From an uncultured Pseudomonadales bacterium (lineage in GTDB: Bacteria > Pseudomonadota > Gammaproteobacteria > Pseudomonadales > Azotimanducaceae), in contig CATOTI010000002.1 in assembly GCA_951813295.1 (NCBI GenBank), positions 1,116,001 to 1,180,000 of the forward strand: a stretch of DNA of 64,000 bases, written 5' to 3'. Below, in pieces: positions 39,834 to 46,907 of the stretch. The notes beneath the pieces were generated by a model. It searched no databases. It was not told the origin of the DNA and saw nothing but the letters and a program-made list of their open reading frames with translations. A program made the position numbers and the translations under genes. Every line of letters begins with the position of its first letter. The first letter of the stretch is position 1.

Positions 39834-41012
39834 TCAAGCAAACACTGCTAACGGTTCGAACGATCCGCCGAGAACCGTCCGGCTCACCCCCGGGCGGAGC
39901 CAACCGTCGATCGCCGTCGCATAAACCCGACGGAAGTCGATCAGCGGTTTGAGGTTGTCGCCTTCGAGCAAATCGTCGAGATTCGCCCGCTCGCCGTAGT
40001 GGCCGCCACGTACGGGTTTTCCAGCGAAGAACATGAGCCCCGCCGCACCGTGATCCGTGCCGCGGTTCGAGTTCTCGGGTACGCGGCGACCGAATTCGGA
40101 GAACGCCATCACGACGACTCGATCCGCATGACCCAGCCGCTCGAGATCCCGAATGAAGCCATGGATGCCATCGGCCGCGTATGACAGGAGACGTTGATGC
40201 AACGCCGGTTGTTCGACGTGGGTGTCGAATCCGTTATTGCGAAACGACACGTGGTAGAGGTTCGCCGGGAACCCCGCGTCGATACAGGCGGCTACCTTCG
40301 GCAGGTCCATCGGCGCGATGCCATAGTCGACCTGGCTCCGGTAACGCGACCAGGCGGCGCGTACGAGCCTGGAGCCATCGCGCGCACTCTGCGCGACGTG
40401 GTTGAGATAGTTCCGCGCTTCGTTCGTCGACTCACCGCCGCCCATCGACTCGAGAGCCGCGCGCGTCGATGCAAACGCCTTGCGCTCGAACCGCCCCGGA
40501 TCGTCGAACACGATTGGCGCGTGTTTGCTGCTCTTGACCGCGAGCGACTGCGACGGACCGATGTTGACGAGGAAATTAGGCTGACCTGTCGGGTCGAGGG
40601 CATCCGCGACCCGTCCGAGCCAGCCATGCTCCGACCCGCCATTCGGCACACCCGTGTGCCAATACGCCATCGACGTGAAGTGCGAATACGACGGCTGGTC
40701 GTAGCCGACGCTGTGAACAACCGCGAGATCTTCGGTCTCCCACAAGCGCTTGAGACCGAGCAATCCCGGGTTGAACCCATAGTAGTCGTCGAGCGGCAGG
40801 AGCGAATCGCGCCGGATGCCGATCGTCGGTCGCAATCGATAGTAGTTGTCGTCACCGTGCGGAACGATCGTGTTGAGGCCGTCATTGCCACCGGAGAGCT
40901 CGACGACGACCAGAATGGGTGGCTTCGCATCATCGACCCGCCCGAGCGCCGGCGCCGCCATTAGCCCGCCGAGGCCCACGAGGGCTTGCCGGCGCGTGAG
41001 TGAGATCTTCAT
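39834..41012 (-). CDS. DUF1501 domain-containing protein
   Basis: 392 aa; TRRQALVGLGGLMAAPALG, VVELSGGNDGLNTIVPHGDDNYYRLRPTIGI, MAFSEFGRRVPENSNRGTDHGAAG. Confidence 0.93.
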   Translation of the reverse strand: MKISLTRRQALVGLGGLMAAPALGRVDDAKPPILVVVELSGGNDGLNTIVPHGDDNYYRLRPTIGIRRDSLLPLDDYYGFNPGLLGLKRLWETEDLAVVHSVGYDQPSYSHFTSMAYWHTGVPNGGSEHGWLGRVADALDPTGQPNFLVNIGPSQSLAVKSSKHAPIVFDDPGRFERKAFASTRAALESMGGGESTNEARNYLNHVAQSARDGSRLVRAAWSRYRSQVDYGIAPMDLPKVAACIDAGFPANLYHVSFRNNGFDTHVEQPALHQRLLSYAADGIHGFIRDLERLGHADRVVVMAFSEFGRRVPENSNRGTDHGAAGLMFFAGKPVRGGHYGERANLDDLLEGDNLKPLIDFRRVYATAIDGWLRPGVSRTVLGGSFEPLAVFA

Positions 41013-42817
41013 CCGAGTTGGTACTCCGGTAGGCTCAACATGAGGTGGAGGAGTTCGCGCAATGGATCCTCCAGATAGCTCGTCGCCTCGTTCACATCGT
41101 CCGTGCCGAGCTGCTCGACGAGAAATGCGCTCAGTGAGCGCGCCGTATCGGCGGGAAGTTCGACCGAAAAGAAACGCTCGGCGAAATGCGCAACCACATC
41201 GTCCGCCGTGAGTAGCTCCTCACGCAGGACGATGCCAGCGAGATCCAGCCGCGCGGGTGCCCGAGGAATCGGAATGACCCGCTCCGTCGCGCGCTGCCAA
41301 CCGCGGTAACTGCCAAATCGTGTATTGAAGGCCTCATCTCGATCCGCGAGCAGGTTGGACGCCGCCATCATGTCGGCATCGATCGCATCACTGGCTGGCT
41401 TCGTCGCCTCGCTAATGGTCGCGCCTTCGCGCAATCGCCGATGCACCGCCCGAATCTCGTACCCGCCCATCCGGTCGGGCGCTACGAACGAGATGTCGTG
41501 GAAGACGACGTCCAGCACGAAATTGGCGCGATCGAAGAGCAGCCCCGGCGTCACCCAGCTTCGGCCCTGCGACCAGCCCGCGACGGTCGGCGGGTGGAAG
41601 AGGCGCTGGCCCAGCGCCCCCGTCACACTGTTGAAATCCGGGATGCCCGGAATCTCTTCGAGGCCCAACTTCTTGTACGTCGACACGGCGAGTTCGACCG
41701 GACCTTTGATACGCGAACCGATCGACTCGGGCGCGTAGAAATCGCGCGATAGGAAGAGCGTTTCGAGGTAAGCACCGACATCGAGATCGAGATCCCGGAA
41801 AAGCGCGCCGAGCCGCCGGGCGTGGTTTTCCGTAACGGATTCACGGACAAAGAAGCGATAGAGCTTCACGGCGATGAATTCGGCGGTCGCATCCCGGCTC
41901 ACGATGCGATCGATCACGTCGTCGCCATCAAAATTCCCGCATTCGCCGAGGAAGCATTTTTCGTCCCGATCGTGCTCGGTTTCGTTGAAGGCGAAATCGA
42001 GTCCGACGAAGTTCCAGCCCGTAAACGCACGTGCCGCTTCACGTATGTCGGCTTCGGCGTAGTGGCCGACGCCCATCGTGAAGAGTTCCATGATCTCGCG
42101 CGCAAAGTTCTCGTTCGGCGAACCCTTCACGTTGATCCCCGCGTCGAGGAACGCGAGCATGGCTGGATCCTTCGACACTTCGCGCAACAACACGTCGAAC
42201 TGACCCGCACCGGCGCGCCGGAAGAGCTCGAGTTGCTGGTGCATCTTGCGGTAGTCGCGAACCTTGTCTTCGTTCGTCGCGAAATGCCCGTGCCAGAAGA
42301 GCGCCAGTTTTTCTCGCAGCGGCGTGGGCGAGGTCAGCATTCGATTCGCCCACCAGTAGGCGACCCGATCGGTTTCCAGACGGCTCGCCCGCAGCCAGTA
42401 GAAGAACTCGTTGACGACCGGCTGGACCGGTCGATTGCCACCGGGTTTCACCTCGACGCCGAGCGCTGCACCCTCTCGCTTCGCCAATGCCGTCGTTGCC
42501 GGTCGGCTGGGCGGGAACGGATCGAGCCCTTCACGGAAGACACCCGAATGGACAAAGGGCGGGTCTTCATCAAGTGGCTGGAAAGCAAGAACACTCGCGA
42601 CGGCTGCCTCGGGAGGCATCGCCGCAAGTCGATCGACGTCACCGGGCGTCGCCCCGAAACCCGAACGCTCGAGCAGATGTTCAGCGTTTTCGCGGGTCCA
42701 ATCGGTGGAAGTGAGCGGCTCCAGGTCTTCGGCGCTCGGCGTCGCGTGCAGGGCGAGCCCGATCCCCAACGCCAAGATCTCGAGAACCCTCAGGCGAGTC
42801 GTCCGGTGCTTCGCCAT
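41009..42817 (-). CDS. DUF1800 domain-containing protein
   Basis: 602 aa; AEHLLERSGFGATPGDVDRLA, YWWANRMLTSPTPLREKLALFWHGHFATNEDKV, NENFAREIMELFTMGVGHYAEADIREAARAFTGW. Confidence 0.93.
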   Translation of the reverse strand: MAKHRTTRLRVLEILALGIGLALHATPSAEDLEPLTSTDWTRENAEHLLERSGFGATPGDVDRLAAMPPEAAVASVLAFQPLDEDPPFVHSGVFREGLDPFPPSRPATTALAKREGAALGVEVKPGGNRPVQPVVNEFFYWLRASRLETDRVAYWWANRMLTSPTPLREKLALFWHGHFATNEDKVRDYRKMHQQLELFRRAGAGQFDVLLREVSKDPAMLAFLDAGINVKGSPNENFAREIMELFTMGVGHYAEADIREAARAFTGWNFVGLDFAFNETEHDRDEKCFLGECGNFDGDDVIDRIVSRDATAEFIAVKLYRFFVRESVTENHARRLGALFRDLDLDVGAYLETLFLSRDFYAPESIGSRIKGPVELAVSTYKKLGLEEIPGIPDFNSVTGALGQRLFHPPTVAGWSQGRSWVTPGLLFDRANFVLDVVFHDISFVAPDRMGGYEIRAVHRRLREGATISEATKPASDAIDADMMAASNLLADRDEAFNTRFGSYRGWQRATERVIPIPRAPARLDLAGIVLREELLTADDVVAHFAERFFSVELPADTARSLSAFLVEQLGTDDVNEATSYLEDPLRELLHLMLSLPEYQLG

Positions 42818-42893: not shown

Positions 42894-43565
42894 GTGACTC
42901 CGCTAAAAGACGCGCACCTTCTACTTCGCGCAACCCTCGTCCTTCTCTTGATCGCATTCGCCGCCTACGTCGCGGTCGATCGAGGTTTGTTCGCGCTCGT
43001 CTTCGCGGCGGATCGAAGTTATCTGTCGAGCATCATTCTCGTCATCTACGTCGTCGCGACGACCCACTGGTTCTTTCTAGCCCGCGCGCTCAACCGCGAG
43101 CGGGCAGATTTCATTGCTTTCGAAGCCGAGCCGACGGTCATTTTCGAGCGCGGCGGGCTCATCGCCCACTTCGTGCGTGAACTCACCGCCGCGAATACGT
43201 CCCGTGACGTACTCGTCAACGCGCTGAACGATGATCTGTCGAACCGCCACGCACTCGGCCACCTGCTGGCGGACGTGCTGCTCAAGCTCGGGCTCCTCGG
43301 GACGATCATCGGCTTCATCCTGATGCTGATTCCCGTGGGCGAGATGCAGGACGTCGACGCGTCGTCGATGAAATCGCTGCTCGCGGCGATGAGCGGCGGC
43401 ATGGCCATCGCACTTTTCACGACCCTCACCGGCCTGGTGACGAGCCTCCTACTGCGCCTTCAATACCACATCCTCGACTCGTCGCTCGTCGAACTCGGCA
43501 CGCGTTTGAGCGTCGCCCTCGAACGCTCGTACGGCGACGGCGCGGCAGACAACAGCCACGCGTGA
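42894..43565 (+). CDS. MotA/TolQ/ExbB-type proton channel family protein
   Basis: VTPLKDAHLLLRATLVLLLIAFAAY...; LLLKLGLLGTIIGFILMLIP and SGGMAIALFTTLTGLVTSLLLRL match ExbB/TolQ channel motifs. GTG start. Confidence 0.85.
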   Translation: MTPLKDAHLLLRATLVLLLIAFAAYVAVDRGLFALVFAADRSYLSSIILVIYVVATTHWFFLARALNRERADFIAFEAEPTVIFERGGLIAHFVRELTAANTSRDVLVNALNDDLSNRHALGHLLADVLLKLGLLGTIIGFILMLIPVGEMQDVDASSMKSLLAAMSGGMAIALFTTLTGLVTSLLLRLQYHILDSSLVELGTRLSVALERSYGDGAADNSHA

Positions 43566-44173
43566 AGCATCCCGCCCTGCGAGCGAACGAGGATGCGTTC
43601 ACCGACCTCCTGTTCAACGCCTTGCTCGGATTCACGTTCATGTTCGTCGTCGCGTTCGCGCTCATCGACGACCCGACCGAAACCGGACGCGTCGACAACA
43701 AGGCGGAGATCCTGATCACCGTCAGTTGGCCGGACGGCCACCCCGACGACGTCGATACCATCGTCGAAGATCCACACGGCAATCTGCTCTGGTATCACAA
43801 TCGCGATACGGGGCTCATGCACCTCGACCGGGACGATCGCGGCCTCTTCCAGGATCGGGTCGTCGTCGACGGCGTCTCCGTCTCGAGCTCGATCAACCAG
43901 GAAACCGTTTCCGTTCGCGCGCTCAAGTCGGGCGAATACGTCGTCAACGTATTGCACTATCAGTCGAACTACCCCGAGCCCCTGCCGGTCACGGTCAAAG
44001 TCGAGAAGCTCAACCCCGAGGTCTCGATCGTGCACTACGCGAACATGGAGCTTAACGGCGTCGGCCACGAGGAAACCGCGGTTCGCTTTCGCCTCGACAG
44101 TGACGGCAACGTCGTCGATACGAACACGCGCGCAAAACCGCTACTCATCCGCGCCGTCGGACAGAAATCATGA
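43562..44173 (+). CDS. stator-like single-TM protein with DUF2135/YfaP-like C-terminal domain (putative)
   Basis: 203 aa; RANEDAFTDLLFNALLGFTFMFVVAFALIDD (TM with acidic residue), then ILITVSWPDGHPDDVDTIVEDPHGNLLWYHNRDTGLMHLDRDDRG...SGEYVVNVLHYQ. Overlaps the upstream stop by 4 nt. Confidence 0.7.
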   Translation: MKHPALRANEDAFTDLLFNALLGFTFMFVVAFALIDDPTETGRVDNKAEILITVSWPDGHPDDVDTIVEDPHGNLLWYHNRDTGLMHLDRDDRGLFQDRVVVDGVSVSSSINQETVSVRALKSGEYVVNVLHYQSNYPEPLPVTVKVEKLNPEVSIVHYANMELNGVGHEETAVRFRLDSDGNVVDTNTRAKPLLIRAVGQKS

Positions 44174-44742
44174 TGGTCGGCGTCATCGGCCTCGCCGTCG
44201 CCTATGCGGTGGTGGCCGCGCTCACGCTGAACTTGAACCTCGCGACAGCCTGGTCGCGGGAGGTCAAAGCCGGGGCGCTCATCGTCGTGGGCGTGCTCTT
44301 CTTCGTTTCATTCTGGAGCTTGAAGGGCATGCTGGGCTGGCCGGCGTCGGCCGACCTGCCCGCGGAGTTCCGGCTGCATTGGATCATGGTCGTCGATCCC
44401 GACAAGGTGACGGGCGACGATGGATCAATCTATTTCTGGGTCCGGGAACTGGACGCTGCTGGGATTCCGATCGGCGAACCACGCGCCCACTCGGTGATTT
44501 GGTCCGAGCGCGGTGCCGAGGAAGCTTCAGAAGCGCTCGCCCGACTGCAGGGCGGTGAGCCGCTCAACGGCTTCGTCACCCGCGAGATGATGGATCCCGC
44601 CGAGGGTGACACGATGGAGATCGAAGGCGAGGACTACCTGAACGATGATCTCGTCCTGTCGGGTGAAGGCGGCGCACGCCTCAACTTCGAGTTTCGACGT
44701 GCGCCGCTACCTACCCTGCCGCCAAAGGAAGCCCCGCTCTAG
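44170..44742 (+). CDS. two-TM protein of unknown function, third gene of channel operon
   Basis: 190 aa; MMVGVIGLAVAYAVVAALTLNLNLATAWSREVKAGALIVVGVLFFVSFWSLKGM, then soluble LHWIMVVDPDKVTGDDGSIYFWVRELD; overlaps the upstream stop by 4 nt. Confidence 0.75.
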   Translation: MMVGVIGLAVAYAVVAALTLNLNLATAWSREVKAGALIVVGVLFFVSFWSLKGMLGWPASADLPAEFRLHWIMVVDPDKVTGDDGSIYFWVRELDAAGIPIGEPRAHSVIWSERGAEEASEALARLQGGEPLNGFVTREMMDPAEGDTMEIEGEDYLNDDLVLSGEGGARLNFEFRRAPLPTLPPKEAPL

Positions 44743-46907
44743 GCTTCCCCGGCCGCGGCACGATCTTCCGTCGCGCGCTTGATGAGGTATTGCTGGATAC
44801 GACCGACATCTGTTGCATCCAACGTGTCGGAGAACCCGGCCATGCCGTTGTTGCGCAAGATGCCGTCGAGGACAACCGCATTGAACGCCGCGTGACGCTC
44901 TTTGGTCATCATCCTGAGATCCGGCAACGTTCCACTCGATACCGCAGCAAGGCCGTGACACGTGCCGCAGATATCGTGGTAGAGCTCCTCACCGCGCGCG
45001 ATATCCGCCGCTGATGCGGTGAGTTCCGGCTGCTCGGGAATCGAAAGATCCCGCGCGGTCGGCGTCGGTAGCTCGCCCGTTCCGCCGAGCGCGTAGACCA
45101 CGACCTTGCCCCAGTTGCCGTACTGATACGTCGCGGTTTCCGGAATGGCGTCGAGACGAATTCCCGCCCCCGTCATGATCGCGACAAACTGCTTGCCGTC
45201 GACCGCATAGGTCATCGGCGGCGCCACGATCGACGTGAAGGTATTCGACTGCCAGAGGATCGAACCATCATCCGAGTCGAACGCGGAAAGATTGCCGAGC
45301 GAGTCGCCCTGGAACACGAGACCGGCTGCTGTCGCGACCGTTCCGCCGTTCCACCAGTCGGCATGCTGGACCGACCAGGCCGTCTCGCCGGTCAGCGGGT
45401 CGAAGGCTTTGAGGTAACCGACCGGTGCGGCCCCCCCAGGCGTTTCGGTGAGAAGCTGGGCGATCCGACCGAATTCGATTCCCAAGTTCGAACGGCCAGG
45501 CGAGCGCTTGTACAGACCGGTTTCCTTGTAGTCGTCATCCATCGCGTAGACGAACGCGGCATCCTGGGCCGGGAAATAGACGAGCCCACGTTCGGGGTCG
45601 TACGCCATCGCCTGCCAGTTATGTGCACCGAGCGGGCCCGGCAGGATCCACTGTTCTTCTTCGGAATAGTCGACTTCCGCGTTCTCGACCGGTCGACCCG
45701 TATCCATGTCGACATGCGTCGCCCAGGTAACCGCACCGTACGGATGCGCGCGTAGCAGCGTGCCGTCGGCCCGGTCGATCACATAGAAGAAACCGTTCTT
45801 CGGCGCTTGCATCAGCACCTTGCGATCGACGCCGTCGACGTTCATGTCGGCGAGCATGATGTCCTGCACCGCCGTGTAGTCCCAGTTGTCGCCTGGCGTC
45901 GTCTGGTAGTACCACTTCATCGCGCCGGTGTCGGCGTCGAGGGCGACGATCGACGAGAGGAAGAGGTTGTCACCACCGCCGGGCGAGCGAATTGCGCGGG
46001 TCCAGGGCGCGCCGTTGCCGACGCCAATGTAGACCGAGTCGAAATCCGGGTCGTAAACGATGGAGTTCCAGACGGTGCCACCGCCACCGATCTCCCACCA
46101 CTCGCCGCCTTTCCAGGTCTCCGCGGCCATCTCCATTTCCGGGTGTTCGAACGGCAATGCGGGGTTGCCCGGCACGGTGAAGAACCGCCATTCCTGCTCA
46201 CCGGTCGCCGCGTCGTATGCCGTCACGTAACCACGCACGCCGAATTCGGCACCGCCGTTACCGATATAGACCTTGCCGCCCGCGGCACGCGGTGCGCCCG
46301 TGATCGTGTAGAAGCGCTCACGGTCGATGACCGTGTCGACTTCCCAGAGGAGGGCGCCGTCGGCCGCGTCGAGGGCGAGAAGCCGACCGTCGAGGGTCGC
46401 CACGTGCACACGACCTTCGTAGACGGCGAGGCCCCGGCTGATGACGCCGCAGCATGCCTTACGCGCAAACTCACCCGGTACTTCCGGGTCGTAACGCCAG
46501 ATTTCCGCGCCAGTCGCGGCGTTCAGCGCATAGGTGATGTTCCAGGCGCTCGTCAGATACATGACGCCGTCCACCACGAGCGGTGTCGCTTCGAGCGGGT
46601 GAATCGTGTCCAGGTCGAGATACCACTCGAGACCGAGTTCGCCGACGTTCTCGCTGTTGATCTGCGTCAACGTCGAATAGCGCTGCTCGCGGTAATCCTT
46701 ACCGTACGAAAGCCACGATTCGGGCTCCGCCGTTTCCGATGCGTTGATTCGCGCATCGTCCACCATCCCGGCCGTACCCGCCGGCGCGGGAACGGCTGGC
46801 GCTTCTGGCGCAGGCGCTGGCGCCGGTGTCGGCGCTTCCTGAGAACAGGCCGCAATCGCGGCACAGATCACGAGCACGGGCCATCGCGATTTGAATGTAA
46901 GACTCAT
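44739..46907 (-). CDS. PQQ-dependent alcohol dehydrogenase (quinohemoprotein, methanol/ethanol family)
   Basis: 722 aa; ARKACCGVISRGL (vicinal Cys), PGDNWDYTAVQ, C-terminal CGTCHG heme c site; lipoprotein-like N-terminus. Confidence 0.94.
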   Translation of the reverse strand: MSLTFKSRWPVLVICAAIAACSQEAPTPAPAPAPEAPAVPAPAGTAGMVDDARINASETAEPESWLSYGKDYREQRYSTLTQINSENVGELGLEWYLDLDTIHPLEATPLVVDGVMYLTSAWNITYALNAATGAEIWRYDPEVPGEFARKACCGVISRGLAVYEGRVHVATLDGRLLALDAADGALLWEVDTVIDRERFYTITGAPRAAGGKVYIGNGGAEFGVRGYVTAYDAATGEQEWRFFTVPGNPALPFEHPEMEMAAETWKGGEWWEIGGGGTVWNSIVYDPDFDSVYIGVGNGAPWTRAIRSPGGGDNLFLSSIVALDADTGAMKWYYQTTPGDNWDYTAVQDIMLADMNVDGVDRKVLMQAPKNGFFYVIDRADGTLLRAHPYGAVTWATHVDMDTGRPVENAEVDYSEEEQWILPGPLGAHNWQAMAYDPERGLVYFPAQDAAFVYAMDDDYKETGLYKRSPGRSNLGIEFGRIAQLLTETPGGAAPVGYLKAFDPLTGETAWSVQHADWWNGGTVATAAGLVFQGDSLGNLSAFDSDDGSILWQSNTFTSIVAPPMTYAVDGKQFVAIMTGAGIRLDAIPETATYQYGNWGKVVVYALGGTGELPTPTARDLSIPEQPELTASAADIARGEELYHDICGTCHGLAAVSSGTLPDLRMMTKERHAAFNAVVLDGILRNNGMAGFSDTLDATDVGRIQQYLIKRATEDRAAAGEA

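Follow-up and report, generated by a model that had tools for sequence, protein, structure and literature searches.

A three-gene MotA/TolQ/ExbB-family module with a DUF2135-like subunit is found on bacterial chromosomes and in tailed phages

Ion-driven membrane complexes of the Mot, Tol and Exb type are known to serve swimming, nutrient uptake, outer-membrane stability, gliding and phage defence. In the ExbB-ExbD and TolQ-TolR pairs, adjacent, overlapping genes encode a MotA_ExbB-family subunit and then a partner with a single transmembrane (TM) helix, which carries an Asp near its start. MotA, a four-TM protein, likewise works with a partner that has an Asp in its TM helix, and the Zorya defence system pairs ZorA with an Asp-bearing partner. 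A further group, the "generic ion transporters" (GIT), consists of non-flagellar A/B pairs with varied added domains, and GIT A subunits carry DUF3450 and DUF2341 (PMC12505986). The sections consulted make no mention of a DUF2135-type B subunit, a third subunit or phage carriage.

We describe here a locus built on a similar plan, with an unusual added domain as in the GIT pairs, from an uncultured Pseudomonadales bacterium. The stretch of DNA analysed, hereafter the window, is 64,000 nucleotides long. The relevant features are as follows.

39834-41012, minus strand: DUF1501 gene, with a 4-nt overlap with the DUF1800 gene
41009-42817, minus strand: DUF1800 gene, divergent from ORF1
42894-43565, plus strand: ORF1, MotA/TolQ/ExbB-family channel subunit, 223 aa, from GTG 42894 to TGA 43565 (Pfam match, invariant motifs, hydropathy)
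43562-44173, plus strand: ORF2, putative axle-like subunit, 203 aa, from GTG 43562 to TGA 44173 (AlphaFold model, conservation, hhalign to DUF2135)
44170-44742, plus strand: ORF3, third subunit, 190 aa, from ATG 44170 to TAG 44742 (AlphaFold model, conservation)
44739-46907, minus strand: PQQ-dependent alcohol dehydrogenase with a C-terminal cytochrome c (Pfam PQQ and Cytochrome_CBB3)

The three plus-strand genes overlap by 4 nt at each junction, GTGA at 43562-43565 (ORF1/ORF2) and ATGA at 44170-44173 (ORF2/ORF3). A preliminary description, made from the letters alone, had given these ORFs, their coordinates and their overlaps correctly to the base, and the motifs that it quoted for ORF1 and ORF2 are present in the sequence. 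Upstream of GTG 42894, the ORF1 frame stays open to a TTG at 42411, opposite the DUF1800 gene; because the ORF1 of relatives begins near 42894, the GTG rather than the TTG is the likely start. ORF2 was found in 18 of 99 relative genomes and in 38 GTDB loci whose labels, taken as deposited with the metagenome-assembled genomes, are SAR86, K189A, OM182, Pseudomonadales, Myxococcota and Deltaproteobacteria. A wider sample of phyla added ten close members in two groups, designated f74 (genomes of six to nine Mb) and f43, and two remote ones. All 55 complete loci from close relatives (L004-L059, without L057, which is cut by a contig end; a few loci represent the same genome twice) have ORF1, ORF2 and ORF3 in this order on one strand, and because all three proteins and their order are kept throughout, the arrangement is more than chance. 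The preliminary description had proposed this synteny comparison and would have been refuted had ORF3 never co-occurred with ORF1 and ORF2; in fact, ORF3 accompanies them in every complete close locus. The order is also found in all eight distant bacterial loci examined from the f74 and f43 groups, and in the remote members L079 and L080 inspection revealed a MotA-like gene before ORF2 and a two-TM gene after it.

ORF1 proved to be of the ExbB/MotA type, as had been proposed, matching Pfam MotA_ExbB (PF01618) with an E-value of 8.4e-9 and 35.7 bits (gathering cut-off 22.9). Hydropathy predicts four TM helices, as in MotA and rather than the three of ExbB and TolQ, and a cytoplasmic loop of only about 60 aa, which is short in comparison with MotA. 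The motif G-L-x-G-T137-x-x-G-F and the pair T176-T177, located in TM3 and TM4, are invariant across 33 close relatives, all of which have the polar Thr residues that mark the last two TM helices of this superfamily. An HMM search of PDB sequences matched ORF1 only to MotA (0.0018). ZorA is among the weak next-best matches (NCBIfam ZorA_2, 3e-4; PADLOC ZorA, 4e-5); however, ORF1 scores 20 bits against a cut-off of 100 and lacks the long ZorA tail, and ORF2 has no OmpA domain. No ZorA or ZorB model exceeded its cut-off at the module, no ZorC/D or ZorE gene adjoins it, and the locus does not meet the criteria for Zorya.

The AlphaFold model of ORF2 (35-sequence alignment, mean pLDDT 81.7) has a helix at residues 8-34 followed by a beta-sandwich, and hydropathy indicates a single TM segment. 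Asp15 (F-T-D15-L-L-F) lies inside this N-terminal helix. It is shared by 70 of the 71 viral and 21 of the 26 bacterial sequences in the alignment, the five members of an alpha-type clade having Val. ORF2 thereby has, in nearly all relatives, what is expected of an axle subunit, namely a single N-terminal TM helix with an Asp near its start. The preliminary description had noted an acidic residue at the start of the TM helix; the relevant acid is Asp15, and not the Glu/Asp residues at positions 10-11, which vary. When the ORF2 TM segment was compared to ExbD by hhalign, Asp fell on Asp, without significance (2.6%, shallow set).

Beyond the helix, ORF2 resembles neither partner protein. None of 26 ORF2 members matched PF02472 (ExbD/TolR) at E 1, no Pfam match to a MotB plug or OmpA-like peptidoglycan-binding domain was found, in keeping with the modelled beta-sandwich, and no Pfam or NCBIfam family matched ORF2. 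A match to an ordinary ExbD or MotB family would have overturned the preliminary description, which instead likened the exported part to DUF2135/YfaP. Searched with a single sequence, PF09906 (DUF2135) likewise had no match to ORF2 at E 1. In profile-profile comparison by hhalign, the bacterial ORF2 set matched DUF2135 with 92.4% probability (E 5e-7) and the viral set with 88.6%; reversed profiles reached at most 1.4%, and ORF1 and ORF3 0.1%. The E-values refer to one comparison each, and the DUF2135 set, with ten sequences, is shallow. The two families have in common the core W-x5-7-D-x-D-L-x-V-x-x-P-x-G ... G-x-Y-x-V-x-V. At the level of sequence profiles, the output domain of ORF2 is thus homologous to DUF2135/YfaP. 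The DUF2135/YfaP domains that we found have separate genes of their own, whereas the module fuses the domain to a stator-type TM helix. The residues D63, D65, D91 and D92 are invariant in 97 of 97 aligned members, within the invariant periplasmic motifs D63-x-D65 and R90-D91-D92-x-G94.

Other searches with ORF2 returned little. In Foldseek, no PDB structure matched the model below E 0.001, comparison with viral models gave a few generic beta-sandwich matches (best 5e-5, TM-score below 0.5), and the HMM search of PDB sequences found only a phage virion protein (0.038) over the stretch of the D-x-D motif. In PHROGs, 23 of 26 ORF2 members weakly matched phrog_1735, of unknown function (best 2.5e-5). 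A local DUF2135 gene was considered as an explanation of ORF2 and dropped, PF09906 being absent from the window's genome and from 58 relatives.

Unlike the Ton and Tol sets, the module always includes a third, two-TM subunit. Hydropathy predicts two TM segments in ORF3, no family in Pfam or NCBIfam matched it, and neither did the TonB and TolA models, in agreement with the two TMs and unrecognised soluble domain described previously. In its AlphaFold model (mean pLDDT 83.1), two helices are followed by a beta-beta-beta-alpha-beta-beta domain. No PDB match in Foldseek went below E 0.001, and the best were OB folds (ArtB, PltB, SSB and PriB) with E 0.04 or worse; the order of the modelled elements and these weak neighbours suggest an OB fold, albeit without a significant structural match. 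The C-terminal L-P-x-K is near-invariant. The loop joining the two TMs is basic in bacterial and phage versions alike, from which, by the positive-inside rule, we infer that the C-terminal domain is periplasmic.

The module also differs from the known machines in its setting. No TonB, TolA, TolB or Pal gene adjoins it, there is no flagellar context, and ORF2 has nothing like the OmpA-like peptidoglycan-binding domain of MotB. Elsewhere in the genome lie four genes for ExbD and six further ones of the MotA_ExbB family; since the cell has separate ExbB/TolQ/MotA and ExbD genes, the module is not its Tol, Ton or Mot set. The separate sets, the conserved three-gene order and the sub-threshold Zorya scores uphold the earlier view that the genes are distinct from Tol, Ton, Mot and Zorya and lack TonB, TolA or ZorC/D neighbours. 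Another divergent MotA/ExbB-family gene in this genome (G000:C3:47975-48301) has no clear partner.

The same three genes are carried by phages. A tblastn search of 50,697 phage records with ORF2 gave 27 matches, all in phages of Rhizobium or Sinorhizobium, the strongest having 38.6% identity across 87% of the query at 2e-26; carriers include the lytic Pootjesviridae myophages N34, P10VF, RL38J1 and AF3, others of 60-171 kb, and the temperate phage 16-3. A profile scan of IMG/VR found 67 ORF2 loci, on contigs of up to 343 kb. The single-protein viral scan with the window's ORF2 returned nothing, and this wider viral set was reached only with a profile (A5). Among 71 viral loci, an ORF1-like gene lies directly upstream of ORF2 in 69 and an ORF3-like gene downstream in 63. 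These loci represent 45 lineages, and the most widespread other neighbour occurs in only ten of them. Phage ORF1s are only about 113-148 aa long, with almost no cytoplasmic domain (a loop of about 10 aa); six of the seven tested nevertheless match MotA_ExbB on their own (23.0-37.6 bits), p038 of 16-3 falling below the cut-off. Two phages outside the profile seeds, TM3_3_14B and I1_18, gave E-values of 2e-20 and 3e-15 for ORF1 and of 8e-7 and 1e-11 for ORF3. In the annotated phages examined, all three products are hypothetical proteins or unnamed p-numbers, and we did not find a phage-encoded ExbB/ExbD/MotA module or relevant work on DUF2135 in the open-access literature (subscription journals were not covered). 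Genes for ClpP-like and ErpA-like proteins recur near the viral module, in ten lineages each, and an SbmA/BacA-like peptide transporter gene lies a few kb from it at L165:8382-9476 and in eight other viral lineages. In RHph_I1_18 (L182:8814-10247), a gene with a von Willebrand factor A domain follows about 2 kb downstream, after five tRNA genes.

We regard it as probable, though well short of certain, that the module encodes a minimal ion-driven complex of the Mot/Tol/Exb type that acts on the cell envelope and is in use on chromosomes and in phages alike. How it assembles, conducts ions and moves, and what it acts on, is inferred, and to call it ion-motive-force-driven is likewise an inference. 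In such a complex, ORF1 subunits, each with four TM helices, would encircle the single TM helices of ORF2 as a ring, and ions would cross at the interface between the two by way of Asp15 of ORF2 and the Thr residues in TM3 and TM4 of ORF1. Their passage would move the ORF2 axle, which would carry its DUF2135-like acidic beta-sandwich in the periplasm. ORF3, with its two TMs and small periplasmic domain, would be an obligate partner, either transmitting the motion or receiving it. The target would lie in the cell envelope, because the module has neither a torque-generating cytoplasmic domain nor an OmpA-like anchor. Since the module is common to chromosomes and tailed phages, its job would have to benefit growing cells as well as phage-infected or lysogenic ones.

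It is possible, though in our judgement unlikely, that the module is instead a device for superinfection exclusion or envelope protection that arose in phages and was later domesticated by chromosomes; the complex would use the membrane potential to alter the periplasm or outer membrane and so block further phages or toxic agents. Most of the family's diversity is in phages. In a maximum-likelihood tree of ORF2 (72 sequences, 203 columns, LG+G4, 1000 ultrafast bootstraps), the chromosomal members form one clade with 100% bootstrap, which under midpoint rooting lies within the viral branches, with the Rhizobium-phage group as its neighbour. L079 and L080, which group with phages of the 16-3 type, probably belong to prophages. 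The temperate phages 16-3 (L112:5244-8132) and TM3_3_14B (L183:3105-6247) encode a secreted trypsin-like protease just upstream of ORF1, and the 16-3-type bacterial locus L080 has the same protease; in TM3_3_14B, module and protease lie beside an annotated att site, where lysogenic-conversion genes are typically found. The weak similarity of ORF1 to ZorA also points towards defence. However, the chromosomal locus is located among metabolic rather than defence genes, a nuclease-type partner is absent, and there are no functional data. Moreover, the tree has no outgroup to fix its root, and the direction of transfer between phages and chromosomes is not established by it. In TM3_3_14B, a Seg-like homing endonuclease gene lies between ORF1 and ORF2.

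The chromosomal neighbourhood raises another alternative. The PQQ alcohol dehydrogenase gene lies downstream of and convergent to ORF3 in 33 of the 36 gammaproteobacterial loci with enough flank, while the upstream genes differ between loci. Close orthologues (60% identity or more) were found in 15 of 18 genomes with the module and in 0 of 81 without it (Fisher 4e-15 over the 99 genomes, uncorrected for ancestry), and in genus g7 one genome has both module and dehydrogenase and one has neither. Thus, in these relatives the dehydrogenase is linked to the module, but from outside the operon. The module could accordingly be a dedicated partner of this PQQ/cytochrome-c enzyme, serving energised delivery of a substrate, metal or cofactor, or periplasmic assembly. 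We think this rather unlikely: phage modules occur without such a dehydrogenase, alpha-type and f43 loci adjoin other genes (including one for a metallo-beta-lactamase-fold protein), three genomes with the module (G007, G008 and G091) lack a close orthologue, and the linkage may reflect either functional coupling or no more than joint transfer in one block. In alpha-type loci, the module adjoins genes for a divergent histidine kinase and a NarL-type response regulator. The DUF1800/DUF1501 pair was also considered as a partner and dropped, no homologue lying beside the module in other loci.

Two clades depart from the usual channel residues. In the alpha-type clade (L073, L074, L075, L081, L082 and L056), Asp15 is replaced by Val, with a Lys four residues on (position 19), and in all six loci ORF1 gains an acid, Asp or Glu, at position 168 in TM4. 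The charge pattern looks as if it had been exchanged between the two proteins. Because the loss of Asp15 goes with the gain of an acid in ORF1, the TM helices of ORF1 and ORF2 may be suspected to touch. The f43 clade (L076-L078) retains Asp15 and has Lys at T137 of ORF1, a position that is otherwise nearly invariant (Ala or Asn in a few others). With only two clades involved, these exchanges amount to no more than two events. They suggest that some members are something other than standard proton channels, and in these two clades at least protons may not be conducted in the usual way. Neither the Asp15-less clade nor phage carriage nor the dehydrogenase link featured in the preliminary description.

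These exceptions count against reading the module as a motor, as do the lack of any experiment or modelled complex and of anything that shows movement. The complex might then be an ion channel, static or regulated, that serves to adjust the membrane potential and has the beta-sandwich for a gate or sensor; both the near absence of a cytoplasmic domain from the very short phage ORF1s and the loss of Asp15 in one clade fit this. We find it improbable, in that a conserved acidic surface motif and an obligate third subunit suggest more than a leak. That the genes are merely divergent versions of ordinary Tol, Ton or flagellar stator genes can be dismissed as highly implausible, since, ORF1's Pfam family notwithstanding, the genome has its further ExbD and MotA_ExbB-family genes elsewhere, ORF2 fits none of the ExbD, MotB and OmpA models, and ORF3 matches neither TonB nor TolA.

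Under the reading that we favour, an ion-driven complex acting on the envelope, the most attractive roles are envelope protection or superinfection exclusion in phages and support of the PQQ dehydrogenase on chromosomes. More tentatively, and as something we hold to be possible rather than likely, tailed phages, jumbo and T4-like ones too, may use a miniature ion-driven stator of their own, with a DUF2135-type periplasmic output, on the host envelope, for superinfection exclusion, envelope protection or the timing of lysis during infection or lysogeny, with chromosomes having taken over one lineage for another use. If phages do drive a machine on the host envelope with the membrane potential, this would be a new kind of phage-host interaction, and the idea lends itself to direct tests, since the module is carried by small phages in culture, 16-3 among them. 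The phage ORF1s would rank among the smallest channel subunits of their kind, which bears on how little a motor requires. A three-part version with a new output domain, present on chromosomes and in many phages, would add a new class to the Mot/Tol/Exb-type machines.
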